DNA of 64,000 bases from Chiua virens. Taxonomy: Eukaryota > Basidiomycota > Agaricomycetes > Boletales > Boletaceae. Location: the NCBI GenBank assembly GCA_019787685.1, contig JAHNUO010000036.1, positions 1 through 64,000 of the forward strand, given 5' to 3'. A program made the position numbers and the translations under genes. The notes beneath the pieces are model-generated. The model was not told the origin of the DNA and did no database searches. It saw nothing but the letters and a program-made list of their open reading frames with translations. How positions within the stretch are numbered: position 1 is the stretch's first letter; each line of letters starts with the position of its first letter. This document shows positions 43,372-64,000 of the stretch, in pieces.

Positions 43372-44880
43372 TCAATCACTGGACTCTTCCTCCTCTTCTC
43401 GTTCTGCTCGTCCACCAAGCCTTAACGCTGTCAACTGCCTACCTAGAATTCGCTCCGCACTCTCTTCCCTGTCATCAACCGATTCTTCCTCTTCCTCGCG
43501 CTCCATAATTCGTCCACGATGCTCTCGAGCATGCCCTCGACCGTGACCAGGGAGCTGCCTCCCATCTAACCTTCCACCTGCAGGGCCTTCCTCATGCTCC
43601 ACAGATCGTTGACGCTGACGATGAGCATGGCCTTCAGCACGACCAGCTTGCCTTCCAACTCCCCGATTGTCATTTGCTCCTGCACGGACTTGCATTTGCT
43701 CCTCTCCATCTTCTCGTACGTCATTCTCTTCTCTCGCAAGATCTCTTGGGGCGGGGCGAAGGTGAGGCTGTCCATATCTACGTTGTTGTGCTTTTGGGTT
43801 AAGAGCGATGTGCGGTCCACAAGGTGTTTCCCCCACAGGCAGCATTGTCCATTGTGCCGAGTAGTTCGCCCGAGTACACCACATCTTGTCACTTTGAGTG
43901 TATGGAATCCACAACATTGCGTCGAACGTTTTTTTGATGATTCCCCGCACTCGTACGAGTGATTGCGGGTTGAGGACATGTTGAAGTTCCAGCCACTGAG
44001 AATAATAACTGGCTTGTTTGAAGTTTTGCCCAATTGTGGCTGGTTGCTGTGCAGGAAACATCCTGTCGAAGTGTTTCGTCCATTCTGTGCCCGTGCAGAA
44101 TTTATATTGAGCAGCTGTGAAAGGAAGAGCGAGTGTTTGATACAATGCTTCTGTGCCTTCTTCCGTTCGCATGTCCTTCGGAATGTTTGTCCATGAGCCC
44201 TCACGTGCGGACTTATGATTCGGTGCTTGTAGCAGGATGTCCAAGAAGAATTGCTCTAGCAATTTTTGAATTTGCACAGACAACGCTTGCACGCCATCAT
44301 TTCCTTGATTCTCGATCACCTGAAGTCTGTTTCCCCCTCCAAATTCCATGAAATGGTCAACGTCTTCTCCTCTCATTTGATGTGGGGGTCGCATTCGGAT
44401 ATGGTTTAGCCTGTCGGCTTCAATTCGAGGAAGGGGGCGATCATCATCTCGTATGTCGTCTGCACGAAGTGTTTGCTGTCCACTGCGGTTGTCGCTGCGC
44501 TCTGCATTAGACCTGGTCTTAGTCCGTCTGACGCCAGCTGTCCCCATAGCGGCCCGCAAGTCTTGTAGAGAAATCCTGAATGCACCTAAGATCACATCCT
44601 CCGAGAACGATTTGTGATACGGCAGACGGTACGTTCCGTTTCGATCGACCACGATGTCACATATGAAATAAAGACCAGCATTGTACATCAGCGGGATTCG
44701 ATCTTCAGGTTCGGCCGTGTCTTCATCATACATTCTATAATCCAACGGGATTTCCTGGCATGCCTTCTCAGCTAGCTCTGTGAATCGAGTCTCTGGGGTG
44801 TGAAACAGGCCATTAAGAAGCCATATCACCACGCCTCCTAGGACAAGAGCACATTCTGTCTGCCTATCTCTATGTCTCAC
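43372..44880 (-). CDS. Hypothetical protein, long open frame of 502 codons
   Basis: Uninterrupted frame on the minus strand, unlikely by chance in this composition. The N-terminal part includes a hydrophobic stretch LVLGGVVIWLLNGLFHTPE. The middle has a compact region with Trp/Phe/Tyr (WLELQHVLNPQSLVRVRG, FDAMLWIPYTQSDKMW). The C-terminus is an Arg/Glu-rich low-complexity tail with REEEEES repeated. The frame opens at a GTG and the first ATG is about 48 codons in, so a first exon may be missing. Upstream lies the CCCCGT satellite, which could have cut off the 5' end. I do not recognise the family. Similar unknown proteins are often repeat-borne in mushrooms; that is inference. Confidence 0.55.
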   Translation of the reverse strand: MRHRDRQTECALVLGGVVIWLLNGLFHTPETRFTELAEKACQEIPLDYRMYDEDTAEPEDRIPLMYNAGLYFICDIVVDRNGTYRLPYHKSFSEDVILGAFRISLQDLRAAMGTAGVRRTKTRSNAERSDNRSGQQTLRADDIRDDDRPLPRIEADRLNHIRMRPPHQMRGEDVDHFMEFGGGNRLQVIENQGNDGVQALSVQIQKLLEQFFLDILLQAPNHKSAREGSWTNIPKDMRTEEGTEALYQTLALPFTAAQYKFCTGTEWTKHFDRMFPAQQPATIGQNFKQASYYSQWLELQHVLNPQSLVRVRGIIKKTFDAMLWIPYTQSDKMWCTRANYSAQWTMLPVGETPCGPHIALNPKAQQRRYGQPHLRPAPRDLAREENDVREDGEEQMQVRAGANDNRGVGRQAGRAEGHAHRQRQRSVEHEEGPAGGRLDGRQLPGHGRGHAREHRGRIMEREEEEESVDDREESAERILGRQLTALRLGGRAEREEEEESSD

Positions 44881-44884
44881 CGTC

Positions 44885-45290
44885 TCCGGTACCGCGCTCC
44901 GTCCCCGTCCCCGTCGCCTTTTTTGGCTTTTTTTTCGACTCCGGTCCCCGCCCCTGCCGTCACTTCTCGACGTTCGTCTCTCTGTCCCCGTCCCCGTCGC
45001 CCTTTTTGGCTTTTTTATCGACTCCGGTCCCCGCCCCTGCCGTCACTTCTCGACGTTTGTCTCTCTGTCCCCGTCCCCGTCGCCCTTTTTGGCTTTTTTA
45101 TCGACTCCGGTCCCCGCCCCTGCCGTCACTTCTTGACCTTCTTCCTTTCCCTGTTCCCCGTCTGACTTTAATTTCGACTCGGTCCCCGTCCCCGTCCCCG
45201 TCCCTGTCCCCGTCCCCGTTCCCATCCCCGTCCCCGTCCCCGTCCCTGTCCCCGTCCCCGTCCCCGTCCCCACCCCTATCTCTGTCCTCA
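44885..45290. repeat. Pyrimidine-rich satellite and (CCCCGT)n tract
   Basis: Three tandem units of roughly 80-87 bp contain GTCCCCGTCGCC, a T-run and CGACTCCGGTCCCCGCCCC. A hexanucleotide run (CCCCGT) follows from about 45180 to 45275. Frames through it encode Pro/Ser or Gly/Thr repeats and should not be called genes. Confidence 0.85.
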
Positions 45291-47487
45291 TCCCCATTCA
45301 ACGTCTCCATCCCTGTGTTCCTCAAACGTACACTAGCGTACGAAACCCACACCAAGTACTTGCCACTTTTTTTTTCTGGGCTGACGTCTCATCGAAACCA
45401 TCGTCCCAGTTCCCATTTCAGCTCTCCAGGATCCCATCATTCACTGCATAACCTTTCTACAGATACTCTTCTATAACTTTTTAGAATACAAGTACACCCA
45501 TTCTTCCCTTCTTCCCTTCATCCCATAGCCTTCTTGTGACCTATGTTCTACACCTATCCTTTCTCGTCGCCTACCCGTCCTGTCCCTTGGAGACTACCTG
45601 TCCATCTCATCATGTCCGAGTCATAACTACCTGCTATGTGAATCTACTAACCATCACTGTCTCCATCCTCTGTCTGCCACGAGAGCTCCAGGACGCTGCA
45701 ACGAAACCTTTCTTTCCGAATGATGGCAGCACGATCCCTAGTATAAGAGACCCAAGTCCTTCGTGAACCCTGATCACAACGAGCCTTACGCCGTCCATGA
45801 TTTAAGGCTTTGCTCCATCAGTCCCATCACTGCTACCATGTCATATCTACATTTATATCCTGTACACGACATCCTCATCGACCACGAAATCGACAGGACT
45901 GCCATGATTTATACGAATGGCTGCAAAATCAGATCGTTGCCTCGCCGTCCTGAGACTTTTGTCCACCGGAGAAACCGCAGTAAGCTGTGGGTGTCTGTAG
46001 GCAATCCACCCGACTTGCACAGTGCAGACGGTTGGTCCACAGCCCATCCACTGGCAGGCATGACAGTTAGGCTGTGTGTTATGAGTCGCTCGCTTTCAGG
46101 TGGTGTCCCAATCGTCACAAGACTGAATCCTCGACATTCAAAGCCGTCAGGACTGAGAGGTTCATCGGCGGCGTTCTTCAGTTGTCACATTCATGTAGAC
46201 CCGGCAGCGCTCACAAATCTCATTCTCTGGTGATATGGCATCACCCTCGCTGTACCGGTATCATCGGAAGAATATGTTTTCTTCTTTGCTATGTCGCTCT
46301 GGATCTTCGTTCTCATCGTTTGCACTTGCAGCTCAACTAGACCTCTCCTTCCTGAATATGACGAGGTTGATCGACATGTTTGTTGTCGTCAACTCTTTTG
46401 CTCGCTCGATCACACCTTCAAAGTCTGTCGTCTTCGAAAGCAAAAACCCTAGCTTCGTCAGAATTCGAGGTATGTATAATGAGACATCATAATCGTCGTA
46501 ATCGAGGTGTGATTGTGACTGGACTTGATTTTTTGTTTGTTTTTTTTTTTTTTCCACTCACGTATGGACTGAGAACAGGTGATGCGGTTGTACATCCAGG
46601 ACTTTGACACGTCTATCCACAGTCCTGTAGACATGACAGTCAGGCCGACAAGTTGCTGATGTGACCTCCTGGTCATCGTCATGTCACCATCTCTTGAACT
46701 TGCAGTTCTCACTCCGTTCTACCAAGCATGTCATTTATCTGAGCCAGCGCTAACTACCGTCCACACGTCAGTCCACTTGCGACCACTTTTCTTCAGGCCC
46801 AGGTCTGCTTCTAGATCGAATCCGACAGCCCATTTGCCTTTCATCATGGCATTATTGTGGTGCTACCACGTCACGGGGCATGTACTCCAAGTCTCTAACG
46901 CAGTAATATGCCATAGTATGTGATTTGATTTTCGATGCACCTCTTGACCGGATTTTTTTTTCTGTAGAATCTGACCCTTTTCGGCATACCTTCTCGCCGG
47001 GAGGGTTGTCAGCATCCCGTACTCGCATCCTCCTCCATCATTGTCCTTTGACTCATCCCGCAGCGTTGGTCCCAGCTGTCTGGGCTATCCTAGGGTCGCT
47101 TGTGAGTTATTCTAGTCACCGCTCAGGGAGTACTACATGGCAGCCGGAGTGCCTCTCTGGGCGATGACATCCGTGTGTAACACACCCTGACGACTCTATG
47201 TCCAGGGCTGGTGGAGGATCATGCTTGCAGCGAAACCCTTAGTAAGTTAACCCCTTCCGACCGTAGTCCTCTAGTACGCTCAGTAACCGAAGGGGCTTTT
47301 TTTTTTTTTTTGTGAAGCTGATCACGGAAGAGCCTTGGCCCGGCGGGTTAGCGTCTGAGCTGGAGGCGAGGTTGAAACGAAGAAATCGAAGTGATAAAAG
47401 GCGACAGCACTCTTCTCAGAGCTTGTTTCCCATTCGTTACTATCGCCTTGTATTCTCTCCCTCGAATTCAAATCCAACACAGAACCT
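45291..47487. other. Gene-free stretch upstream of the first RecQ-like gene
   Basis: Several medium frames exist, for example 45763-46233, but none shows a domain or codon coherence. Poly-T runs occur at 46530-46553 and 47298-47311. Promoter elements were not identifiable. Confidence 0.45.
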
Positions 47488-50400
47488 ATGCCTGAGTGTA
47501 CGACGCCCCACTGCCTCGCCCCACTGGGAGACCCCACCACAAAAAAACACGCGTGGAATTACCACGTCACCCCCATTCCGTTCTCCGTAGCTGGTATGGT
47601 CATGAGTTTCCACGTGCATGAAGGGAAGCTGCTTTGCCCTTTCCCCCAGTGCTCCACGTCCTTGAATAGAAGGGACCGAGCGATAAGACACGCCCGTGAT
47701 ATTCATGGCATCTCCAGTGACATACTCATCTTTGAAAAGCCCTCCGGTGAGTGAATGCCGCGACTCCAAGTCTACTACCGTCTCAAATCTGACCTCCAAA
47801 GTTACCTCTCTGACTGCGGGAGGCCACCAGGGGCCCAGTTCGTCCCCAAATACTCCTATAGTCATGCTGGACGATCCGAAAGAAACGAGCACTAGTAAGT
47901 GACTTGAGCTACAGCCTCCGGCGTTCTTTCCACTGATGGCCCTTCAACCAGACCCAACCCGTCATCCCGCTTCCGTGGAGTCTGCAGAGACTCCCCAAGA
48001 AACCTGTGAGCCAGCCCATGAATAAGCCACATAACCCGCTCACCTTTCGTTCCTTCGTTCCTTCGTTCCTTCGTTCCTTCTTTTTCTTCTTTCTTCTTCT
48101 TTGACCTCCATTCAACTCAGTCCGTCGCGGTGGCGAACAGAAGGTGGCTCTCAACCCCGACGTCAACTATCTAGAAGGTGGCGGCGTTCTTGACAAGCTT
48201 GGGATCTGGTATCACCATGGCCTTGACGTCTTCCTCTGCCGCTCTTGCAGCACATGCTTGACCCTGGATATTCTCAACGGCCACTGCAGAGGCCAGCACA
48301 AAGTATCCATGTCCCCCGACCTGACGGAGGAGCTCCATGCGTTCAACCAGTCTCACCATGTCTACGAACGACCACAGGACGTCCCCCTCCCATGTCCAGG
48401 CGGGCCTGTCATCGACGGTTTGTCTTCACCAGAGAACGGGTTCGCGTGTGGCTTTCCAGGCTGCGATTACTCCGTAAAGAGTGAAGAGACGATGAAAAAA
48501 CACGAGCGCAATTGCCACGATCGCCGTCCACTTCAACCTACTTCATATCAGACCTGCAAGGTGCAGACGCTCTTCCGTGCCGTTGGCAACGTGTACTTCG
48601 AGGTCGAGGAGTCAGCGAAGGAAGGACAGCAGCCGCTCCTACGGCAAGCCTTGAAGGAGCTGGGAGGGCAGGACGACTCGGAGGAGGCTGCCATCGCCAC
48701 CGACAAGGACCGAAACCCTCCAGCGCTGTTGAAAACGACGGGATGGGCGGACTACTTGCCCCACGTCCGTGCCAATAGGACCCTCCGTGCAAACGCCTTG
48801 GCTCTCAAGGGGAGGCGTGACCCGAGCGAGCTCGGTGGCATTTTACCGGGTCTAGAAGCCGCAGTCGATGAGATATTCACCATGGGCCGGTATGCGTTGA
48901 ACGGGCACCCGTCCAAGCTCACCGTACTGAAATTGCTCCTGTATGGGGATAACATACCGAGTGATAAGTCAGTCTCACGACATGAATTCCTCCCGACCGT
49001 TACGCTGACGATGTGATGGCTTCTGCAGACCGAAACACTGGAGCCCCATCGCTGCCTCCAACGTCGAGTACTCGGCGTTCGTCACAGAATGGATGACAGC
49101 GGTCCTCCGGTCCTCGTCTGGGAATTCGAGCGCCGGTGGCTTCCACTTTACGCTCTCAAAGGACCAAGAATCTCACCTACGAGCACTCGAGCATGTGCTG
49201 AGACAGAAGGATGCGGTCAAGGCAGTGCAGTCTTGCCAGAAATTCTTGTGGAGCATCACGTCTGCCCAGCCTGACAGCAGAGACACTTGGAAGGACGTCA
49301 CGCAGCAGTGGATTTGGCTGAGGGCTCTCCGGTCGGACGGTAACTTCTATGGACCGTCGTCACTCACCCCAGACTTGGCGAAGATACGATACGTGATGCG
49401 ACAGACCGCCTTGCTGCAGGCTATCACCCAGCAGTCAGGAAGTGAGGAGGCGCTGGTCGAGTGAGTGACACCCATCGAAAGCATGGACCCGAATGCTGAC
49501 GCCATAGTACGCCCGTTCTGTAGCCGGGTGGTGACATTGCACGCGGACGTACTGAAGCCGGGGAAGCCGACGCCGTTCAACATGGTGACGGACCTGTCTG
49601 CGTATGCATCGTCCCTGGTGCATTCAGAGGTGAAGGACCCCAAGGTCACCCTCTCCGAGGACTATAGGTCGTTCACGGTCGGCACTCAGACGATGTCACT
49701 CGATAGGCTTCGAGGGGGGATCCAGACCGCGATCGCTGCCATCTGGACGGCATACGACCACATCGTCCATTGCGACAGAATCGTTCCAGAGGGGCTTCAA
49801 CCGGTCGACGACCTTTCGAATGACGCACGAGGTTACAGCTTCTTGTGTGAAAGGCCCTTTAGTGAAAAACGACGGTCGATGCTCTGTCACCTGGTGTGCA
49901 TTTACAAGCTCGCGAGCTTGGACTGCGAGGGTAGGCTTTGCTGGGACGTTCCTCAGGTCAAATGTTTGCTTGCGAAGTGCGAGCGGCTGTGGGACAACGT
50001 CCTCCACGTGCTGTTCATCACGATGGGGGTCTCGACCCGCGTCTCTCAGTTCTCACGGATGCAGCTAAGGAACGGAGACCGTCAGCGTAACCTTCAGTTT
50101 AGGAACGGGGAGATGTTCTTCATGACGCGGGACAGCAAGACGAGCAGTACGCTTGGGAGGGATTCTTGCGTTCCGTCATTTCCTCCCTCGCAAGTCGCCT
50201 CGCTGCTGCTTGAGCTCGTCGGAGGTGGACTTCGAGAAGCTGAAGCATGTCTGGTGGGACAAGCGTATGGGTCAGAGGCGATGGAGCTGCACAGAAGGTG
50301 ACAGAAAAAAATCTCTTGCGTCGAGTCATTTTCTGACTTCTTTACTCCTCCCTGGAACAGCTACCTCTGTATGCGTGGGGGAAAGAGGCTGGAGCCGGAG

Positions 50401-52990
50401 CAATTTTACAGCATGTTCGCAGCGAAGAATGGCGAGCTGTTCGGCTGTGCTTGGGGCTGTAGGGACTATCGCCAAGGTGCGATCTCGATGGCCAGGCACT
50501 TCATATCTGTGGCAGCTGCTAGTGATGCCACATTCACTGCTCTCGACGAAGCACTCGCGGAGGCTGCAGACCACTCTACCCGCATCGACCATGCGCACTA
50601 TGGAAGGACGCTTGCTGACCATCCGCGCCTCACGCACAGCGACATCGAGAAACAGCGATGTATATGTCAAGAATGGCATTCCTTCTTAGGCTTGGGGCCG
50701 TTTCCAGTACAAGAGCCGATTGCCGTGGTACGGTCCCGAGGCAATAGCTCTCATGTCGACAAGGAAACGCTGAAGTCAGCACTAGCCGAGCTACTCCCGG
50801 AACTCTGCAGCTCGATCGCGGACGACGTGTCGAAGAAGATGATGTCAATAGCCAACCGTGACGAAGCAGCACCTACCACTGCCTCCTCCTCTCATGCCAG
50901 TGCTCCGAGTCAGTGCACGTCGTCTAGGCCTCGAGCTCTAGGTTCCACCCGCCCCGCTGCCACTGTGGTCAGAATGGAGGTCCCTTCTGAGCACCTCCCT
51001 TCGACTGCCCAAGAGCCTGCTTCCCCATCCCACCTGGCAGGTTTCGGTGTGCCTTCGCCTTCTCGCTACTTCCATGGCCAACCCTCCCCGCCGCCCGACG
51101 ATCGCGACGAAATGCACATGCCAATCGGCAATCACGCACCGAAACTTCCTGCAGTGGACGGCCGGAGGTTCCAGATGGAGTTCGATGTCTTTTCCTCCGA
51201 TCCCAATTCGAGTCAGCCTCGAGCCCTCCCGAGTGCCATTTTCGAGAATGGGCACTCTGCACTGGACAAGGGAAAGGGAAAGGGAAAGGGAAGGGAAGCA
51301 GACCTGCCTAGTGTGACAGCTCCAGAGGAATCCATACTTGACCTGACCTCCTCTCCTCCCGTTCTCGATTCGAGTGAAAAGACGGCGTCTGGTCGGAACC
51401 CTGGGGTAGGACTCAAAGCCTTACCCTCTCAGCTGATCGTTCCCATCGGTCAGAGAAAGAGACGTGCCCCAGCTGAACCCCTGCTGCTAGACTCGGACCT
51501 TGGACTCGAGCATGAAGCGGAGACAGCACCAAAGCGAGTACGTAGGGGCACGGACGCAGAGGCTTTTGCTTTGTTCTCTGACAACGAAGCGGAAGACGGC
51601 GGTGGCTACGACTTCGATCGTGACTGCCTGGACGACCTCATTGCTCCCTCCACTCCAGACTCGGCGGCGGTGACCATGCGTGACGCCATTCGCTCCAAGA
51701 TCGCAGAAACAGTGAAGAACCCCAACGCCCGGGAGAAGAGCCCAGAGCAGATGGACGCGCTTCTCGCCATCATGCTGCAGGATCCAAGGGACCTCGTCGT
51801 GGTCATGAAGACGGGAGGCGGGAAGAGTCTGCTGTGGACCATCCCACCCCTTCTCAAGCTCCCTGGCATCTCGGTCGTGATCTGCCCCTTCAAGTCGCTG
51901 TTAGACGAACAATATGCTCGATGCAAGAGCGCTGGTGTCGTCTGCCACAACTATTGCCATTCGAAAACTGTCCAGGCCGGCACGCAGAACCTCTTCTTGC
52001 AGGTAGAGCACGTGGGCATGAACGTCTTCCAAAAGTGAGTCACCCCTCGACCACCCACGCTTTCCATTTGTCATTGACCCCCGCCGGGCCCTCCCCCTCA
52101 GTCTTTTAATGGAGCCGATCGGGAAAGAGATCAAGAGGGTCTTCGTGGATGAGTTCCATGACATCATTCAATGCCCCCCTGGGCGTCGTTCGAGCTGGAA
52201 CACGCTGGCCCGGCAGTGCTCCTCGATGAACATACAGATGATTCTTCTTTCTGCGACATGTCCCCCGTCGATGACTACCGAGCTGCTTAACCCATTCCAA
52301 CTGAGAGAAGGCAGAATGAACCTGATTCGAGGGCCTACGGACCGGCCAGAGATCGGCTTGCATTACATCAGAGCCCTGTACACCCCGGACGGCCATGTCC
52401 TCCACAGCGTTGTGAACCGTTTACATGCCATGCTGGGCCCTCAGGAGAGAATCCTGGTCTTCCTCAACTCGAAGAAAGAGGTCGAAGCGTTCGCAGGCAA
52501 AGCCAAATGCGCCATGTACCATAGCGAGTTGTTCGAGGCCGGAAACACGAGGAACGAGAACATTCTTCGGTGGGACTTGGGCGAGACGAAGGTCATGGCC
52601 TGCACGACAGGCTTCGCTCAGGGCATCGACAGGCCAAGCGTGCGGTTCGTGGTGATAAAGGACCCTCAGTATGGGCTGCTGCTGACGATGCAGATGGTCG
52701 GTCGTGCCGGAAGAGACGGAAAAGAGTCCCACGCCTTCATCATCGACACGGAAGGGGGGCAAATTTTCAGAAGCAAGAGCCTCGCTTGCAGCAGTTCGGT
52801 GAAACAGGTTATGGGGAACGATGCTCTGTGCAGGGTTCGATCGACTACCAGGGCCCTCGACGGGAAAGGTTACGAGCACCAATGCAGGGAGCGCCCAGGT
52901 CGTGTGGCTTGCGATGTGTGCAATCCGAGCCACCCCATCCACTGCGCTGCGGTCGCTGCCAGCAAGAACGTGAGCGGCCCAATAATCTAA
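47488..52990 (+). CDS. Zinc-finger / recombinase-like / RecQ-type helicase fusion, gene 1
   Basis: About eight exons, roughly 1,650-1,680 residues, apparently intact from ATG 47488 to TAA 52988-52990. In order: C2H2-like fingers (LLCPFPQCSTS..H..H near 47630; FLCRSCSTCLT..H..H near 48230; FACGFPGCDYS..H..H near 48440). A helical region follows. Then comes a domain with Arg in TRVSQFS (50038), Lys in DSKTSS (50137), CRDYRQ (Arg 50470) and DHSTRIDHAHYGRT (His 50572, Tyr 50599). A disordered linker follows, then SF2 helicase: Walker A KTGGGKSL (about 51808), VDEFHD in place of DEAH (52125), LLSATCPP, and QMVGRAGRDG (about 52690). A Cys-rich C-terminus (CDVCNP) is last. The helicase resembles telomere-linked RecQ helicases of fungi. 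The recombinase reading is mine. Introns at 50298-50360 and 52035-52101 keep frame. Confidence 0.85.
48038..48106 (+). repeat. Pyrimidine microsatellite in an intron of RecQ-like gene 1
   Basis: Several CGTTCCTT units followed by a TTCTTC tract, just before the acceptor at about 48120. Likely serves as an extended polypyrimidine tract or is neutral. Confidence 0.7.
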
Positions 52991-53024
52991 TAATCTTCCC
53001 CTCCGTATCCGTACCACTTGATAG

Positions 53025-55260
53025 CCCCTGGAACAACCTAGTGGAACAACCTAGTCAATGGGGTGGAACAACCTTGTGGAACAACCTAGTCAATGGGGTG
53101 GAACAACCTTGTGGAACAACCTAGTCAATGGGGTGGAACAACCTTGTGGAACAACCTAGTCAATGGGGTGGAACAACCTTGTGGAACAACCTAGTCAATG
53201 GGGTGGAACAACCTTGTGGAACAACCTAGTCAATGGGGTGGAACAACCTTGTGGAACAACCTAGTCAATGGGGTGGAACAACCTTGTGGAACAACCTAGT
53301 CAATGGGGTGGAACAACCTTGTGGAACAACCTAGTCAATGGGGTGGAACAACCTAGTGGAACAACCTAGTCAATGGGGTGGAACAACCTTGTGGAACAAC
53401 CTAGTCAATGGGGTGGAACAACCTAGTGGAACAACCTAGTCAATGGGGTGGAACAACCTAGTGGAACAACCTAGTCAATGGGGTGGAACAACCTAGTGGA
53501 ACAACCTAGTCAATGGGGTGGAACAACCTAGTGGAACAACCTAGTCAATGGGGTGGAACAACCTTGTGGAACAACCTAGTCAATGGGGTGGAACAACCTA
53601 GTGGAACAACCTAGTCAAAGGGTTGGAACAACCTTAGCCTAAGTGGAACAACCTAGTCAATGTGGTGGAGCAACCTTAGCCTAAGTGGAACAACCTAGTC
53701 AATGTGGTGGAGCAACCTTAGCCTAAGTGGAACAACCTAGTCAATGTGGTGGAGCAACCTTAGCCTAAGTGGAACAACCTAGTCAATGGGGTGGAGCAAC
53801 CTTAGCCTAAGTGGAACAACCTAGTCAATGGGGTGGAGCAACCTTAGCCTAAGTGGAACAACCTAGTCAATGGGGTGGAGCAACCTTAGCCTAAGTGGAA
53901 CAACCTAGTCAATGGGGTGGAGCAACCTTAGCCTAAGTGGAACAACCTAGTCAATGAGGTGGAACAACCTTAGCCTAAGTGGAACAACCTAGTCAATGGG
54001 GTGGAACAACCTTAGCCTAAGTGGAACAACCTAGTCAATGGAGTGGAACAACCTAGTCAATGGAGTGGAACAAGCTTAGCCTAAGTGGAACAAGCTTAGC
54101 CTAAGTGGAACAACCTAGTCAATGGGTGGAACAACCTTAGCCTGAGTGGAACAACCTAGTCAATGGAGTGGAACAACCTTAGCCTAAGTGGAACAACCTA
54201 GTAGAACAACCTAGTCAATGGGTTGGAACAACCTTAGCCTAAGTGGAACAACCTAGTCAATGGGTGGAACAACCTTAGCCTAAGTGGAACAACCTAGTCA
54301 ATGGAGTGGAACAACCTTAGCCTAAGTGGAACAACCTAGTGGAACAACCTAGTCAATGGGTGGAACAACCTTAGCCTAAGTGGAACAACCTAGTCAATGG
54401 AGTGGAACAACCTTAGCCTAAGTGGAATAACCTAGTGGAACAACCTAGTTAATGGGTTGGAACAACCTTAGCCTAAGTGGAACAACCTAGTCAATGGGTG
54501 GAACAACCTTAGCCTAAGTGGAACAACCTAGTCAATGGGTGGAACAACCTTAGCCTAAGTGGAACAACCTAGTGGAACAACCTAGTCAATGGGTTGGAAC
54601 AACCTTAGCCTAAGTGGAACAACCTAGTCAATGGAGTGGAACAACCTTAGCCTAAGTGGAACAACCTAGTCAATGGGTGGAACAACCTTAGCCTAAGTGG
54701 AACAACCTAGTGGAACAACCTAGTCAATGGGTTGGAACAACCTTAGCCTAAGTGGAACAACCTAGTCAATGGGTGGAACAACCTTAGCCTAAGTGGAACA
54801 ACCTAGTGGAACAACCTAGTCAATAGGTTGGAACAACCTTAGCCTAAGTGGAACAACCTAATCAATGGGGTGGAGCAACCTTAGCCTAAGTGGAACAACC
54901 TAATCAATGGGGTGGAGCAACCTTAGCCTAAGTGGAACAACCTAGTCAATGGGTTGGAACAACCTTAGCCTAAGTGGAACAACCTAGTGGAACAACCTAG
55001 TGGAACAACCTTAGCCTAAGTGGAACAACCTAGTCAATGGGGTGGAACAACCTACTGGAATAACCTAGTCAATGGAGTAGCACAATTTAGTAGAACAACC
55101 TAGTCATTGGGGTGGAATAACCTGGTGGAACAACCTAGAATGGCGTAGAACAACCTACTGGAACAACCTAGTAGAACAACCTAGAATGGGGTGGAATAAC
55201 CTACTGGAACAACCTATTGGAACAATCTAGTCAATAGAGTAGAACAGCCTACTACAGAAA
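53025..55260. repeat. 35/42-bp minisatellite built on GTGGAACAACCTAGTCAATG
   Basis: Begins about 35 bp after the stop of RecQ-like gene 1. The first part (53040-53620) is a 35-bp composite of two related words: GTGGAACAACCTAGTCAATGG followed by GTGGAACAACCTT. From about 53630 the second word becomes GTGGAGCAACCTTAGCCTAA, giving a 42-bp unit repeated many times with internal duplications. It frays into diverged units by 55080-55260. No coding role; the direction of decay suggests growth from the gene-proximal side. Confidence 0.95.
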
Positions 55261-55632
55261 TCTTGTCAATGCAGTGTAACAATCTGATAAAGACAATGTC
55301 TGTATTACATAGCCACAAGCACATGTATTCCAAATACTTGGGCATGATGATAAAATGACTGAGATACTAGGCATGAGGCAAAATCCATGTAAGTATATTT
55401 GCATTAGTGGAATACTTATGGCAATTGATAGACACCAATTCAGCTAAGTTAGTCAACTACTAGTGGAAGCATATGATACATTTCACTTTTACTAATTGAT
55501 AGCCACTATCATAAATATATGGAATATTTATGCTGAGCTACAATCACTTAGTAGAATAAGTCAACAAGCTAGCTATGGATAGAAGTATATAAACATGTTG
55601 ACACAGACCAATCTACCACACAGCGGAAACCA
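55261..55632. other. AT-rich gene-free spacer
   Basis: No gene. Contains one imperfect copy of the GCACAAGTAT-type palindrome at 55319-55343. Confidence 0.45.
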
Positions 55633-56017
55633 CAATTAGTCATGGTGAAATACAATCTACTATGGACCTCTGGTTACCTACAGACCCTTAGATCATAAGA
55701 TGTGGAGCACAGGATCAAAGGATATGGCCATTTCCAGGTGGCATGTTGGTCAGAGAGGGTCTTAACTCAGTTTTTGTGGTAGAAATTCAAATGAAATATC
55801 TAAAATTCTGAAAATATTGTGGGAAGTACCCATGGATAGGAGCTAAAGACTGGTCCACTAAAGGACAAGTCTTTTATTTTTTCAAAATCAAGGCAACTGG
55901 TAACTGAACTGGTCAGCAACTGGATGCAACTGCAACTGCAGTCCAGTTGCTTACCAGTCCAGTCTGGTCCAGTTGCCAGTCTTTTGAGCAGCCCTAGACT
56001 GGACTTTGGAACACTAG
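55633..56017. mobile_element. Truncated copy of the TIR element at 57945
   Basis: Matches 58147-58499 over about 380 bp, including GGGAAGTACCCATGGATAGG and the right terminus ACTGGACTTTGGAACACTAG. The left about 200 bp with the left inverted repeat is missing. Confidence 0.75.
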
Positions 56018-56880
56018 GAGTTAATGTCTGAGAAGGTCAGAGTTGGATTTGGTGGAATGGAGATGGTATGGTATATAACAGTGAGCCAGATGTGTCATCC
56101 CAGAAATCCTATCAATAAGTGCAACTCTCCTATTTAAAACTCTGACCCTTCAGATCTAAATTCCTGCAACTCCAAAGCATTCTTGCACTCCTCCTTCAGC
56201 TCCAGACCTCTAGACTTGTACTCTGAATATCTCTTAGATCTCCTTTGTCCCTTTTTGTCCTAGTGTACATTCTGTATTCCTGTGTCTTGCTTAGGAGCAC
56301 AGCTCCAGCTTTTATACATATCTGACTTCTTCCAGTTACTTACTTTCCTATCATCTGTCTTAGCTCTTTAGTCATTCTCCATTTCTCTGGCTTATTCATC
56401 TCCTAAACTCCTTAGTAATATCCTTTGATCTCTGAGTATATAAACTTTGTTACTCCTCTTGCAACTCTAGCTTGATTATCAACATACATGTAGATGAATC
56501 CTGCCTAATCATCCCCAAACTCCTAAAGGTCCTGGTGACTTCTCTTGTTCATCCTGAACTTCTCCAAGCTCCTTCAAACTATCTCTGTAAATCCATGACA
56601 CAATGCTAGTAAGAGGGCAGCACATAAGCTGAACCCAATGTCCTATCTAAACATTTGAACTCTGAGATACCCCTATTTCTGGAGTACATTCCGGAGGAAT
56701 ATGGTCTTAACAAAATGATACTACTCACTCTGATGAGACTCTCTGTTTGATGTGGTCAGGTCACTGAGTGCTATTATTCAATTTACATTAGAGATGTAAG
56801 CACTAGTTTGGGTCAGTGGTGATTTAGTAATACTGTAGCATTGAATAAAATTGTTTGTCACATATGAATTTCACATTGAT
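56018..56880. other. AT/CT-rich gene-free stretch
   Basis: No open frame of note, no repeat recognised. Confidence 0.45.
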
Positions 56881-57944
56881 ACAGAGGTTAGAATGCCATG
56901 TAGCTACACTAAATGGAGTGAGTATGAAGCATTGAGTCATTCAGCAGTGAAATAAACATGCCAGAGTCAATTTGAGATTGAATGGGGAGTCAGGTAAGAG
57001 TGGTAACTGGGACATGCCAGGGCCATTTGATGTTGATATAAGAGGGAATGGGACTAAAATGGACTCAAATGAGTGAATATCATGGGATAAATTGATTGGT
57101 CATGACACAAACATCTGTATTGAAATTAAAATCCAGGAAGGGTTGAGGCAAGTGGGGTAACAAGAGTGTGTTGTGGTAGTTTTAGGTCAATATACAGGCA
57201 GGAACAGCACCTAAATTGAGAGTAAGTAGAGTGTGTACCAAGCAACAAATCAACTACATTAAAAATTGAGACACAAAGGGGGATAGAGCTAAGTGAAGTG
57301 ACTGGGACATGTTGGAGCTATTTCATGTTGATGTAAAGTAGGAATAGCACCTGAACAGACTAAACAGAGTGAGTATGAATCAATGAACTGATTGACAGCA
57401 AAACAAAACATACCAGAATGAAACTAAAAACCAGGAAGGGTTGAGACAAGTAGGGTAACCAGGACATGGGAGCCATTTTGGGTCAACATGAAGGTGAGCA
57501 TAGCACCTAAATAGACTTAGTAGAGTGGGCTCCAAGTGGCAAATTATTTGGTCATAAGAAGAACATACCACATTGAAAATAAGGTCCAAGGAAGGAAAGG
57601 AGAGAAAAGGAACAACTGGGACATGTCAAAGGGGAGATCAAGACAAGTAGGGTGACTGGAATGCTTCAGGGCTGTTTCAGGTCAATGTAAAGGTAGAAAC
57701 AGCACTTAAATACACTCAATGGGGTGAGTACAGAGTGACAAACCCCTTGGCAGTAAAATAAATATACCAGAGAAATTTGAGATGAAGGGGGTCAAGGCAA
57801 GTGGGGTGACTGGGATGCATCAGGGCCAGTTCAGGTGAATGTAAAGCAGGGAATGGTACCAAAATGGATTACATAGAGTAACTATGAAGCACAAAATCAA
57901 CCAGTTGTAGAACAAACATACCAGAATGTGTAACACCATGAATA
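56881..57944. repeat. Degenerate tandem repeats of about 130-170 bp
   Basis: Recurring blocks at roughly 56990, 57150, 57300, 57450, 57640 and 57800 share GACTGGGACATG-like starts, a GGTCAATGTAAAGG-like middle, AGCACCTAAAT, GAGTGAGTATGAA and ACATACCAGA. The copies are strongly diverged. No coding potential. Confidence 0.7.
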
Positions 57945-58499
57945 CATAGTGTTTTAAAGTCTGGTCCAGTCTGGTTTTCCATGGTCCAAATGAGACAACT
58001 GGACCAAGACCAGTCCTAGAAAGGTCCTGGACCCTTCCAACCACATATGGACCAAAAAAAACTGGTCCAAAACAGTCTTTTGATCAGTTACAATCAGCTG
58101 CAACCATTGTTGTTCCAAACTGGTCCTTTGACCCCTTTTGCGTGGGAATCATGATTAGTCATGGTGAATTCAAATCTACTATGGACCCCTGGATACCTGC
58201 TGACCCTTGGATCATAAGATTTGGATCACAGGATCAAGCAATATGGCAATTTCTGGGTGGCATGTCAGTCAGAGGGGATCTCAACTTGGTTTTTATTGTA
58301 GAAATTCAAATAAAATACCTAAAATCCTGAAACTATTGTGGGAAGTACCCATGGATAGGAGCTAAATACATGTCTCTCTTTTGTCTAAATCAAGGCAACT
58401 GGCAACTGGACTGATTGACAACTGGATGCAACCACAACTGCAGTCCAGTCCAGCTGCCAGTCTTTTGAGCAGTCCTAGACTGGACTTTGAAACACTATG
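57945..58499. mobile_element. MITE-like element with terminal inverted repeats
   Basis: The left end CATAGTGTTTTAAAGTCTGG (57945) is the imperfect inverse of the right end ACTTTGAAACACTATG (to 58499). Length is 555 bp with no transposase. The interior is rich in TGGTCCA/TGGACCA words, itself foldable. A clear target duplication could not be fixed. Confidence 0.65.
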
Positions 58500-59152
58500 A
58501 ACACACAATTGCAGCACACACCAAATATGACATCAATCAGAGGCACCAGCTGAGCCACATGGTTTTGTGCAGCACACAAGGCAGGTTTGTATTAATAAGT
58601 GATGGTTAGAGCTGTAGCCTAAATAGCCAAGACAACCACTTGCACCTGACAGAGGTGAGACAAACAAACTATGTGAAAAAGTGTTGGATGGCAGTCTCCC
58701 ATGGGGTTCTCCACTAACTTATTCATGATGTAAAATATCACAGAAGGTTGTGGAAATAGCCAAGACAGAAATACTTAGACCAAATAATAATAACTACCAG
58801 CAGCACAAGTGTATGAATACTTATGCTGAGGAGAACACAGAATGAATCAAGTATACTATTGGATGGATTGGTTGTACACATGTATGTATACTTATGCTGT
58901 CAACAATTTCTTATGCAAGCCAGTGGTTTGATCCAGACGATGTATAAGAATTTTAAGTAGTTACCTCAATATCTGTTTGAACCAGTTTACTAATATAGCC
59001 ATACTAAAATTTCTTCAATCAATTGCTTGCACAAGCATATGAAATACTTGTGCACACATCGTGGGAAAATTATTCAAGTGGAGTTTGAATTTATCATAAA
59101 TATAGGCCAACCTGTGGGAAAATATTGTTCTTTCTCCCACTTTCATACCATC
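58500..59152. other. Gene-free stretch with palindrome copies
   Basis: Leader region of RecQ-like gene 2. GCACAAGTAT-type palindromes at 58803-58826, 58874-58897 (weak) and 59029-59053. Confidence 0.55.
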
Positions 59153-62100
59153 ATGTTTACCTGCAACTCCTGCAAGCTACAATTTGACTTGAAGTCTATA
59201 TATATCACTCACATTAGAAAATGTGTTCCCACATCTATCTTTTTCACTCATACTAAACAAAAGGTCACTGTACAGAGGAATGAGGATGGTGTATTTCTTT
59301 GTTACTGTTCTAACCCTGGCTGTCCCAAGCTGACAGGTTTCTCTACCACAAACAACATGAAAAAGCATATGAAAAAAGTCCAATCAATTTGGGTGGGACC
59401 AAACAAGAACAAACAATGTGCACAAGTAAATGAATATTTATGCACATCCAATCCAGTAGGTGTTCACTGATTTATAGTCATTGTGTCTGACATTTAATAA
59501 TTTCAAATCCAGTTCCTTGATACTGCTATGCGATCTTCACCACCTTCTGCCCATAGCAATCACAATATGATCACCTCCCCAACGAATGTAAGCCATGTTT
59601 GTGTGCACAAGTATTCCATTTACTTATGCTAGCAATAGCAGAGCCCCCAAGCCTCTCATGTAAGTGTATTTGATGTGCACAAGTATTCCATATATGTACT
59701 TATGCTGGCAATAGCAGGATCCTCAAGCTTCTCATGTAAGTCATGTTCATGTGCACAAGTATTTCATATACTTATTCTGGCAATAGCAGGACTTCCAAGC
59801 TTCTCATGTAAGTCATGTTCATGTGCACAAGTATTTCATATGTTTATGCTAGTGACAGCAGGATATTGACATGGGATCACCTCTGGTTATATCACCAAGA
59901 TCTTTAACTCAACCCATACCATCCTTGATAGTAAGTTCATGTTCATAAACAAACCTCAGCTATGAATAATTTATTTTATAGTCTATATTAGAGCAGCAAC
60001 ATCGATCAGTATCAGCCACAAAAACTCCTTCACCACCACCCATTCCTCCAGTCATACAAGAAACCAGTATCAACCCATCTTACATCAGATCCAACGGTTT
60101 CCTCCGACACTCGTATCTTGACTCATTGAATTTGGTTGTCAATGAGGAATTCCATTTCCTTCAATGTCAGGAATGTGGCATTGCATTGTTACAAGAAGAG
60201 GCTGCCATCCACCTGATGCAAACACATCCTGCCATATGCATGGATCAACACAAGTTCGCTCAAGCAGCCATGGAAGTCTCACTGGCTAAGAACTTTCCTT
60301 CACATATAGAAGGACCAAGAGACAATATAGATGGACTGTCCATCCATGATGCTTTTGCATGCAACCACTGTTTCAAGCTTTACATGGCAGAGGAGACTGT
60401 ACGGACTCATCATTACAAATACCACAAGGACATTCCAAAGCCATCTTTTTGGAGACGCTGCAAAGCTCAAAGCATCCATTCGCGGCGAACAAAAGCTCAC
60501 AGTGCTTGCCACCTCCTCTGGGAAGTGTACGAAAAGGAAACCATTCAAGGGCAGTCTTTCAAAGAGTCTTTGATAGACACCCTCTTGAAAGAACTAGAGG
60601 AAGAGTTCCATATTCCATCTGTGATATCGGATGAACGTCTAGTGACTCCATGGCTCAACACAACACGTTGGCATGAGTATGTTGCAGGAGAAAGATTTGA
60701 TACCAAGTCTTTGTGTACCATGGTATCCACTCCCAAGGACGATGATCTGATTCTGCCAGGTTTACGCACTGCTGTCAACACATATTTCCAAGAAGCATTG
60801 GATCTGTTGCAAATAACTGATGAGCTGGTGCTCAAACGTTTGAATTCGCCTTGTCCCCTTCAAAAGTGAGTCTAACAAACACTGCATGGCACAAGTATAT
60901 TGTATACTTATGTACACCTTGCTCATCTTTTTCAAGTGGCATATCCAACACTCCACTTCACAAGCACATGTTGGACAAGAGCATGACCAAATATGTAGCA
61001 CCAGTCATTGCCTTGTTGGTCATGTTGATGACGATGGGCAGCGAGGACCTAGAGGTCAAGCAGATGGCCGAGCTCCTTTTTAGTGCACTCCCACAGCGAA
61101 AGGAACGAGCAAACCTCTCAAACTACATTCATTGTATACTCATCAGGGTATGGACAAAGACCTGGAAGCGTAGCCCAACCACAGTCATCATGGACCCTAC
61201 CGAACGGTGTCTGGCTCTGATGACATTGAAAAAAGATGGTTCCTTCAATGAACCCAAGCATGTCACTACAATCATTGCAAAGCTCGAGTACTGCATGCGA
61301 TTGACCTTCTTGAGGGAGATCAGAAGCAGAGTGGACATTCCAAATGGAGTGGAGGAAGAGGTGGCCTGCGATGCCCTTCAAGATTGGTTCATCGAAAACA
61401 AATACTCCACGTTTGCCCGACTACGCTCCCTACAGCATCGTGCTACTGCCATCGTATACGACACGCCGAGCTTGCCTAACATCTGGTGGACAGACAGTGT
61501 CCACTGGAAGTCCATGCTGTTCAAGGGTGAACCAATTCACTTTGATGACATCTGTGGCATGTTTGCAGACACAGAAGCCAAGCTGATTGAACTATGGGAA
61601 CAAAAAATACTGGGTGGGCTGTCCTTGAGGGCAGAATATGATGCTGTTGCAGATGATCTTACCAACAAGGATGTTGGTTATTCATTCCTATCTGACCAGC
61701 GAAACAAAGCCTTTCAACAAAGAGGTCGATTGGTCCAAGCTGCAGCCAGAGGAGAAGGTCGATTCAGACATTGGGCGAATGTGGTGAATGGAGAGATAGA
61801 ATGGAACAAGGGAGCCATGAGGGCATGGTTGCAAGACTATGCTGAAATGCAACACCTCCTGCTTGTACGAGCAGAAATGCTAAGTGGGGCTCCAAGTCGT
61901 GGCACGGAACTCACTGCATTGGCATACCGCAACACCAAGACCCGACCTACACGCAGCCTAGTCATGTTGGGCAAGCACCTTACCATCCTCTGTCAATACA
62001 TGAAGACCACAGCACTCACAGGACAGGATAAACTCATTCCACATGCCCTGGATGCTATCACAAGTGACATTCTCATTCAAGACCTAGCGTTGGCCAGACC

Positions 62101-64000
62101 GTTTGCAGAGATTGCAGCACGAGCATGTTTTCCCAACAAGCCAGAAGTGAAAGAGCTATATCAAAACCAGCTCTTTGTCAACTTCAATCGGCTGTTTACA
62201 ACTGACGATCTTTCTGGAGTGATGTCAAAGTATAGCCTTCCTCGTCTCAACTATGCACTGACGGTCAATCCTTGGCGTCATATCCAGACTGCCTGGAAAC
62301 GCAAATTCAAATGCTCATCTGAGGCTGTGCAGGAAGACAACATGGTAGACAATGTTGAAGCCCTTCAGGCTGGGCATACACGAGCGACAGAGAATCGCAT
62401 CTATGGTCTTAGCATGCATACGTTGGCTGGAGCACCAGAAGACATACTGCCATACTATTTGGAGGCAAGCACATTGTGGCAAAAGCAATGCCAAACAGTC
62501 CCAGGTGGAACCAACCTGCCTTATCAACAAGCATGTACAACAAGCTTTGTTAGCACAGCATCTTCAACCCATGCATGTGAGTGTATGAATGCTTGTGCAT
62601 AATCACCACTTACACTCTTTGCAGTGTCTGCAGATCGAGTGCACAAGTATATGAATACTTGTGCAATACCAGCACCACCACACACCAATGCTGGTCCATT
62701 AACACAAGACATAGCCCAGCAAATTATGACATGCTTGATGCCCTCCTTGTCTAGTCTCATACAAGATGCGGTCACCAAGGCTTTGGATGATCGTCTGCCC
62801 ACTCAAACAACCACAGAGGGCAAAGGCAAAGGCAAGGCAGTCGAAACCCTATTGGACGATGAGCAGAATCCAATGTCTTTTGTGGAGGATGAGGAGGATG
62901 ACATAGGATTGAGACTGGCTTTGCAACAAGAAGCAGAAATGAATGCCACAAAGAGATGCACTAACAATCAAGGAGAAGGCATGTAGTATCTTATGGTATT
63001 TCTAGAACATTCTGTGACATGCTCATTTCAGGACCATCCAAGTGGGCAGCCACATCCTCCAAACGACTTATGGATCCTATTACCTCTCCCTCTCCCTCCA
63101 ACAATGCTTATCGCCATGTGCGTCAACGGCTCATGACAACTCTTTCACCTCCTGTCCCTTCCAATGGCACAAGTATCCATACACTTATGCCAATCTCTAC
63201 CACTGCCACACTTGAATCCAAGGCACTGGCAACCATGAGACACCTTCTTGGAAATTCAACTGCCAACTGGCGCTCTGTAGAACAAAAACAGGCCATGTTA
63301 GCAGTGTTGAACCATCATGAGGATGTTATCACAGTGCTAGCGACTGGCGGAGGCAAGTCCATGTTGGCAATAGTACCCAGCATGATGGAGCAATCAACAG
63401 TGACCATCCTGGTCTTACCGTTGAACTCTCTTATCATTGACTATCAACGTCGTCTCACAGGAATGCAAGTGCCATATCAGGTGTATGGTGAAGGAGATAC
63501 AGAGGATGGACAACTGAGTGTCACCAAGAACCTAGTCCTGGTGTCTGCTGACAGAGCTCAGACCAGTGATTGGCGAAATGCATTGTCTATACTGGCTCAG
63601 AAGAAGACTGTGGCACGCTTGGTCTTTGATGAGGCCCACATTCCCTTGATTGCCAAAAACTATCGTAAAAGCTTGGACAACATCTATCAAATACGCTCGA
63701 TCCCCTTGCAACTTGTGTTATTAAGCGCCACTCTTCCTCCCAGCTTTATTCCTGAGCTCACTGCCTCCTACAATCTGCTTTCCAACACCACCATTGTCCG
63801 GCAGTCCACAAACCGACCAGAGCTTATCTACATCCTAGAAAAAATGGCTTCTACATCTCTTCTTGCAAGAACCATGCAGATCTTGGAAGAAGAGAAAGAC
63901 AACTGGAGAGAGGAGGACAGAGGGTTGGTCTTTGTGTCATCCATCGCAGAAGGACAGCAGTTGGCAGGTCTCACAAAGCATGCCTTGTATGTGGGTGATC
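59153..64000 (+). CDS. Zinc-finger / recombinase-like / RecQ-type helicase fusion, gene 2 (3' end outside window)
   Basis: Divergent paralogue of gene 1 in AT-richer DNA. ATG 59153 starts a finger MFTCNSCKLQF..H..C. After a repeat-rich intron, further fingers FLQCQECGIALL..H..H (60150) and FACNHCFKLYM..H..H (60355) follow. After the intron near 60855-60936 comes a long alpha-helical region, then Arg in PSRGTELTAL (61898), Lys in YMKTTALTGQDKLIPH (about 61995-62040), NPWRHIQTAWKR (Arg 62276) and GHTRATENRIYGLS (His 62375, Tyr 62402). A Lys-Gly-rich linker precedes the helicase: Walker A ATGGGKSM (63340-63363), FDEAH (63625-63639) and LLSATLPP. An intron at 62979-63031 appears to use a GC donor. 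The window ends inside the helicase. 5' exon joins between 59390 and 60080 are uncertain. Confidence 0.8.
59420..59849. repeat. GCACAAGTAT..ATACTTATGC palindromes inside gene 2's first long intron
   Basis: Copies at 59420-59443, 59605-59629, 59677-59705, 59753-59776 and 59825-59849. The last four lie 72-76 bp apart, and the intervening sequence (GCAATAGCAGG..CTTCTCATGTAAG) is also repeated, so they form a small tandem array. Confidence 0.85.
60889..60913. repeat. Palindrome copy within an intron of gene 2
   Basis: GCACAAGTATATTGTATACTTATG-type copy lies between the donor at about 60867 and the acceptor at about 60935. Confidence 0.85.
62573..62664. repeat. Two palindrome copies, one spanning a splice donor and one in coding sequence
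   Basis: 62573-62598 is a diverged copy whose left arm contains the splice donor GTGAGT. 62641-62664 is a perfect copy read in frame as HKYMNTC just after the acceptor at about 62625. Confidence 0.8.
63167..63190. repeat. Palindrome copy in the coding linker of gene 2
   Basis: Read in frame as GTSIHTLMP in the disordered linker just before the helicase domain. Confidence 0.85.

Follow-up and report, generated by a model that had tools for sequence, protein, structure and literature searches.

A tyrosine-recombinase-like domain between zinc fingers and a RecQ-type helicase in a multi-copy, contig-end-linked gene family of Chiua virens

Introduction

Two large genes of the fungus Chiua virens (Boletaceae) encode a zinc-finger region at one end and a RecQ-type helicase at the other, and the question raised by this locus is what kind of domain lies between them. 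Both genes are found in the window, the 64,000-nucleotide stretch analysed here (positions 1 to 64,000 of contig JAHNUO010000036.1, assembly GCA_019787685.1). The original prediction, made from the sequence letters, proposed that the middle segments carry the ordered hallmark residues of tyrosine recombinases and that the proteins could move or rearrange their own locus by a Crypton-like or Starship-like logic. Here, we find a tyrosine-recombinase-like domain in both genes, a conclusion that is well supported both by conservation among paralogues and by the core fold seen in structure predictions. We put at about 70% the probability that the two genes belong to one multi-copy, contig-end-linked family, in which a zinc finger/OrsD region, a recombinase-fold domain and a RecQ-like helicase are joined and act on chromosome-end units. 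The domain order, the conservation, the signs of purifying selection, the predicted core fold, the contig-end linkage and one exact left end of a repeated unit support this reading. Sequences were compared within one intron-bearing assembly of 48.3 Mb and 136 contigs (C numbers denote contigs; the window is C36:1-64000).

Layout of the two genes

Gene 1 occupies 47488-52990 and gene 2 extends from 59982 to about 65061, running past the window end. Both lie on the + strand, so that the predicted "two divergent genes" are divergent solely in the sense of diverged. In both, Pfam places an OrsD zinc-finger region first and a DEAD/Helicase_C helicase last; the recombinase-like domain sits between zinc fingers and helicase, as had been proposed. 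The parts are as follows.

47488..49013, + strand: gene 1 N-terminal zinc-finger/OrsD region (Pfam PF12013 OrsD, E 1.4e-13 in 48105-49013)
49524..50760, + strand: gene 1 tyrosine-recombinase-like domain (predicted exons 49524-50297 and 50361-50760)
50298..50360, + strand: predicted 63-nt intron splitting the gene 1 domain (GT..AG plus frame continuity)
51742..52990, + strand: gene 1 RecQ-type helicase (Pfam DEAD and Helicase_C; NCBIfam recQ)
59982..60866, + strand: gene 2 OrsD-like zinc-finger exon (Pfam PF12013, E 1.7e-4, under the cut-off)
61469..62497, + strand: gene 2 tyrosine-recombinase-like domain
63202..64000, + strand: gene 2 RecQ-type helicase, its frame about 1.06 kb longer beyond the window on C36 (Pfam DEAD, 4.4e-13; Helicase_C in locus L042)

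The C2H2-like first exon of gene 1 (ATG 47488) is a by-eye reading, and the Pfam scan of this gene started at 48105. A RecQ-type helicase core is recognised in both genes by the Pfam DEAD and Helicase_C families. The NCBIfam recQ models reach 5.5e-16 for gene 1 and 5.8e-16 for gene 2, all beneath the curated cut-offs; for the gene 2 helicase the DpdF model scores slightly better (5.4e-18), likewise far beneath its cut-off, and the best PDB sequence match is BLM (3.3e-10).

Catalytic residues and their conservation

The Arg, Lys, Arg, His and Tyr claimed for the two genes were all found at the expected positions of the translated sequence:

50038..50040, + strand: gene 1 box-I Arg (STRVSQF)
50137..50139, + strand: gene 1 beta-hairpin Lys (DSKTSS), two residues past the predicted strand, in a low-confidence stretch of the model
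50470..50472, + strand: gene 1 box-II Arg (RDYRQ)
50572..50574, + strand: gene 1 second His
50599..50601, + strand: gene 1 putative nucleophile Tyr
61898..61900, + strand: gene 2 box-I Arg (SRGTEL), invariant in alignment A1 (see below)
62003..62005, + strand: gene 2 beta-hairpin Lys (YMKT), invariant in A1
62276..62278, + strand: gene 2 box-II Arg (NPWRHI), invariant in A1
62375..62377, + strand: gene 2 second His, invariant in A1
62402..62404, + strand: gene 2 putative nucleophile Tyr, invariant in A1

The predicted spacing also holds, with a His-to-Tyr distance of 9 in both genes and a box-II Arg-to-His distance of 34 in gene 1 and 33 in gene 2. The same is true of the replaced first His of HxxR, three residues before the box-II Arg, where gene 1 has Arg and gene 2 has Asn.

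Searches of the genome with parts of the middle domain returned at least 29, at least 11 and at least 31 matches, which were merged by eye into 34 loci. Alignment A1 was built from seven paralogous domains, including that of gene 2 and leaving gene 1 aside; the other six are 20-50% identical to the gene 2 domain. Among its 226 gap-free columns 22 are invariant (including R100, G101, T102, E103, Y133, K135, R226, G258, H259 and Y268, numbered from 61601), and these comprise all five catalytic columns as well as the Glu of RxxE and the Gly before the second His. The chance that the five named columns would all be invariant is P ~6e-6, or ~1e-4 when only Arg/Lys/His/Tyr columns are considered (8 of 38 invariant), both values taking the paralogues as unrelated draws and serving as a guide only. 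The catalytic residues are unchanged even in members just 20-25% identical to gene 2. Box-I Arg, hairpin Lys, box-II Arg, second His and Tyr thus follow one another in order throughout A1 and in gene 1, and the invariance that the original prediction expected of a real family is what the alignment displays.

The five residues of gene 1 align to the catalytic columns of A1, with Gln in place of the Glu of RxxE and Asp in place of the Gly before the His. The second half of the gene 1 domain matches the domain of locus L028 (E 0.0055 and 0.0075), and a copy on C13 is matched by both gene 1 (4.9e-30) and gene 2 (3.6e-4), linking the two to one family. At the sequence level the membership of gene 1 is weak, but it was found independently by two routes.

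Nei-Gojobori ratios of nonsynonymous to synonymous substitution (dN/dS) were calculated for seven pairs of domains. Values of 0.119 for L007/L006 (dS 1.4), 0.100 for L018/L022 (dS 1.7) and 0.126 for L007/L012 (dS 3.1) are signs of purifying selection on the domain; the gene 2/L004 value of 0.47 rests on very few changes. A pattern check showed that the stop-free copies it covered retain the box-I motif and the His-8-Tyr motif, while box II of gene-2-type copies was judged from alignments and printed translations. In the copies inspected, replacement of a catalytic Arg was seen only where stop codons are present: box-I Arg is His in the C13 and C8:254 kb copies, box-II Arg is His at C8:280 kb, and both are Gln at C79:36 kb.

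This pattern bears on the idea that the domain is what remains of a recombinase, retained solely to bind DNA, in ordinary telomere-linked helicases that spread by homologous recombination between ends. Subtelomeric RecQ genes are known in several fungi and domesticated Cryptons with catalytic loss have been reported, as far as the accessible parts of the sources go (PMC7473861, PMC10532341; PMC3212892), and the 95-100% identity of unit copies described below is expected from gene conversion too. Against it stand catalytic residues that do not vary even at 20-25% identity to gene 2, and the loss of a catalytic Arg, in the copies inspected, only where stops are present. We consider this explanation unlikely.

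Linkage of the domain to the helicase

At locus L028 (C12), the domain and a RecQ helicase (TIGR00614, 3.1e-32) lie within a single stop-free frame of 707 amino acids, which makes the link between the two independent of exon guesses. Among the listed loci, whose numbers are lower bounds, the domain lies upstream and on the same strand at 21 of 24 helicase loci; the exceptions are C63:38 kb and two RecQ-like helicase pieces, C28:317631-318866 and C5:1201467, near which no domain is listed. In the other direction, no helicase is listed directly downstream of 13 of the 34 domain loci: the decayed C13 copy, C12:612 (contig end) and 11 members of a second subfamily, which has the domain and no helicase listed close by (L043, L044, C14, C79:36 kb, C21:40 kb, C2, C47, C53, C58, C90 and C12:190 kb). 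In this subfamily a weak OrsD match occurs in L043 and none in L044, some copies have stops, and four of the five loci on contigs of at least 300 kb sit within 60 kb of an end.

Predicted fold and sequence searches

Structure models of both domains point to the catalytic core fold of tyrosine recombinases. For the gene 2 model, 38 of the first 39 of 50 VIA rows name a recombinase, an integrase or a topoisomerase, and the remaining row is a phage repressor; for the gene 1 model this holds for 27 of the first 30 of 50 rows, the other three being SPbeta-type repressors. Such phage and SPbeta-type repressors have a recombinase-like fold. Both models place the Lys after the second strand of a hairpin. 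The predicted core fold is therefore recombinase-like, and the structural check, which could have ended in another fold, gave no confident match to one.

Several observations weigh against the reading given above. The two models were built from 8 and 12 sequences with mean predicted local distance difference test (pLDDT) scores of 52.4 and 63.7, and pLDDT is below 50 around the Lys, second His and Tyr in both and around the box-I Arg in the gene 2 model, so that the models speak to the core fold and not to the geometry of the active site. Foldseek searches with the models gave no match at E <=0.001, and the top two rows for gene 1 were unrelated proteins. Pfam, PHROGs, PDB sequences and hhalign revealed no sequence or profile tie between the domain and known recombinases: seven domain members found nothing better than E 0.034 in Pfam (an unrelated receptor family, one member), the PHROGs search nothing better than 0.38, NCBIfam nothing for the gene 2 domain and PDB sequences nothing up to E 10, and hhalign of the domain to Cre, to L001 and to a 16-sequence recombinase alignment gave no support. 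On the side of conservation, the first HxxR His is variable in A1 (N, N, S, H, Q, R, R), several family copies contain stop codons, and conservation is known from the paralogues of this one genome. The dN/dS value is 0.28 for L018/L024 (dS 2.3), the gene 2/L007 and L022/L024 pairs are saturated, and with dS of 1.4-3.1 in the four usable distant pairs the ratios are rough.

Sequence methods may be too weak for these domains, as L001 (C16:534922-535134), a separate recombinase-like frame of 573 amino acids and the sole PF00589 match in the genome at E <=0.001, itself scores 22.6 bits, under the cut-off of that family. An IMG/VR search with L001 found no relative. The lack of a sequence match and the low model confidence at several active-site residues would also fit five residues that are alike by chance in a domain of another fold. 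Given the invariance in A1 and the core-fold results, this explanation is disfavoured and very improbable.

The first His of HxxR deserves separate consideration. It is missing from both genes and present in one of the seven A1 members (L018), and the family is accordingly filed as recombinase-like only: it is recombinase-like by fold and residues, not a proven recombinase. The superfamily includes natural enzymes that carry another residue at this position, and in type IB topoisomerases, too, the set of Arg, Lys, Arg, His and Tyr comes with no first box-II His. For the latter reason we retained the alternative that the domain acts as a type IB topoisomerase which works with the helicase at chromosome ends to relax joined DNA or dissolve it, as a one-chain analogue of RecQ-topoisomerase III. 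Type IB topoisomerases belong to the same fold superfamily as the predicted domain, yet they rank under Xer and Cre in both VIA lists, although differences below 1 count as ties, and L018 does have the His. This alternative is improbable in our view. The R-H-R-Y tetrad described for tyrosine recombinases includes the first HxxR His, according to the accessible part of PMC3212892.

Position near contig ends

Proximity to contig ends was counted for 20 of the 34 domain loci, namely those on the 13 contigs of at least 300 kb. The outermost 60 kb at the contig ends, which make up 8.5% of the sequence on these contigs, contain 13 of the 20 loci (P ~5e-10), and of those 13 all but one, 12 in number, read toward the end (P 0.002), with the reservations that the 60-kb limit was picked after viewing the data, that near-identical copies are non-independent and that contig ends are not proven telomeres. 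The many copies at chromosome ends that characterise telomere-linked RecQ genes are thus found here as contig-end linkage. A search of the assembly for TTAGGG x3 found no telomere repeats. The window genes lie 48-65 kb from the start of C36 and point away from it.

The gene-2 unit and its left end

The sequence around gene 2 recurs as a unit, whose left end abuts a truncated gene 1 in the window. In the comparison of unit copies, 36 of 378 candidates were scored.

52986..52988 (repeated region starts at 52984-52986): junction between the common left end of the gene-2 unit and truncated gene 1; the same unit end occurs in C21, C51 and a C10 fragment, and gene 1 is uninterrupted on C79

Rightward of this end, the unit recurs with 95% identity over 8 kb on C21 and C51 and with 92% over 3 kb on C10, and C36:64001-67000 recurs at 99-100% on C51, C40 and C21. 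The left end is identical to within two bases in C36, C21, C51 and C10, each time after a different flank. In C36 the flank consists of gene 1 codons, in C21 it is the C-rich repeat found at window 44865-45062, in C51 (L086, boundary at C51:73611) a frame that by eye reads like a retrotransposon polyprotein, and in C10 other DNA. Every flank finishes in CT, which may belong to the unit start.

On C36, the last-exon frame of gene 1 has 322 amino acids compared with 363 in the copies on C9, C79 and C83, or 41 codons fewer at the 3' end. The search with the gene 1 tail yielded five matches (C79, C9 and C83; diverged on C5 and C8) and none on C36, a further count against our reading. By this result the C36 joint is not one where the gene-2 unit simply inserted into gene 1, and it reflects either replacement of everything distal or insertion followed by loss. 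The predicted movement of the locus is made likelier by near-identical units with one exact left end beside different flanks; at the C36 junction it would have been something other than a simple insertion.

Another possible origin of the common left end is end joining, or break-induced copying, where chromosome ends had broken, with no recombinase involved. The missing gene 1 tail fits this, as do flanks that share just CT at the joint, possibly the unit's own first two bases, and the presence on both sides of the C36 joint of the 8 bp AATAATCT, where the last 8 bases ahead of the joint repeat the first 8 of the unit. The C21 flank is the repeat that in C36 precedes the joint by 8 kb, so that the C21 and C36 joins may be related rather than independent. 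Random breaks, however, would not give the same unit end within two bases in C36, C51, C21 and C10. We regard end joining or break-induced copying as a serious possibility, though less likely than not.

Comparison with known systems

The family resembles the telomere-linked RecQ genes (TLH; UTASa/UTASb of Ustilago maydis; Agaricus bisporus) in having multiple RecQ-like copies near chromosome ends, and it differs in that no recombinase domain is named in the accessible parts of those accounts. In these parts, UTASb pieces of U. maydis with a 'core' and/or OrsD domain adjoin the RecQ piece UTASa (PMC10532341), and the helicase core is the only domain found in subtelomeric RecQ helicases (PMC7473861). 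A paper on the telomeric RecQ genes of U. maydis nowhere uses the words tyrosine, recombinase or OrsD (PMC7593156). In the available portion of a paper on host-transposon fusions with helicase domains, 'tyrosine recombinase' appears just in the reference list (PMC10799480). No paper naming a recombinase-RecQ fusion was found in the accessible literature, outside which most subscription journals and bioRxiv preprints lie. To our knowledge, a helicase and a Tyr-type strand-transfer enzyme in one chain have not been described in eukaryotes.

With Xer, Cre and lambda Int the domain shares the predicted core fold, the Arg-Lys-Arg-His-Tyr set and the His-to-Tyr spacing of 9. Unlike them, it has no detectable sequence similarity to these enzymes, its first box-II His is replaced, and it is fused to a zinc finger and a RecQ helicase. 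In fungi, large units are moved by Starship captains (DUF3435), which are eukaryotic tyrosine recombinases; the window family differs from them by the fused helicase, and Pfam scans of the genes and domain members gave no DUF3435 match. Starships have been described from Pezizomycotina, in the part of PMC12289983 available. Crypton transposons likewise have fungal recombinase-type proteins in repeated units, the helicase again being the difference. CryptonF elements feature a GCR1_C domain and 5-6 bp terminal direct repeats, according to the accessible part of PMC3212892; no GCR1_C or DUF3504 match was obtained in the Pfam scans (gene 1 from 48105, gene 2 to 63999, gene 2 tail). The recombinase-like domain of the original prediction therefore stands, on conservation and fold, and its Crypton-like or Starship-like membership is unsupported.

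Proposed mechanism and implications

We infer DNA cleavage, a target site and movement for this enzyme. The zinc fingers would bind subtelomeric DNA, and the Tyr would nick a strand, forming a 3'-phosphotyrosine link. The domain would then exchange or reseal strands at a site within its own subtelomeric unit, while the RecQ helicase would open the DNA or branch-migrate the junction. As a result, chromosome-end units might be copied, moved or resolved, which suggests that the genes of this family may themselves rearrange or spread chromosome-end DNA.

A broader and more speculative proposal is that fungal telomere-linked RecQ genes are the recombinase-helicase genes of a class of mobile elements targeted to chromosome ends, in which the zinc finger finds the end, the recombinase cuts a fixed unit end (52986), and the unit is copied or captured onto other ends by the action of the helicase; we advance it tentatively, as less probable than its opposite. 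If it were true, the plasticity of fungal subtelomeres would be partly enzyme-driven, beyond homologous recombination alone. Our confidence is tempered by the models being least certain at several active-site residues and by the possible non-independence of the C21 and C36 joins.

In the accessible parts of PMC7473861 and PMC10532341, subtelomeric RecQ genes figure as helicases of unexplained role. With a strand-exchange domain that is conserved and apparently intact, they would acquire a chemistry open to testing. Such a domain would also add a recombinase family that sequence searches overlook, and the chromosome-end location of these genes would become a directly testable question.

Repeats around the two genes

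53029..55253: long tandem array of units of about 35-42 bp (TGGAACAACCT...), close to the left end of the gene-2 unit

Contigs C10 and C5 carry the array as well, at their starts. We rejected position 45673 as a left boundary of the gene 1 unit, since C79 and C12 carry about 877 extra bases there while C11 is continuous, which indicates an indel. These extra bases lie, relative to C36, at the right edge of a C-rich repeat of 0.8 kb (window 44863-45672), which is built from 83-bp and GTCCCC tandem units and has copies on C39, C28, C40, C79, C12 and C48.

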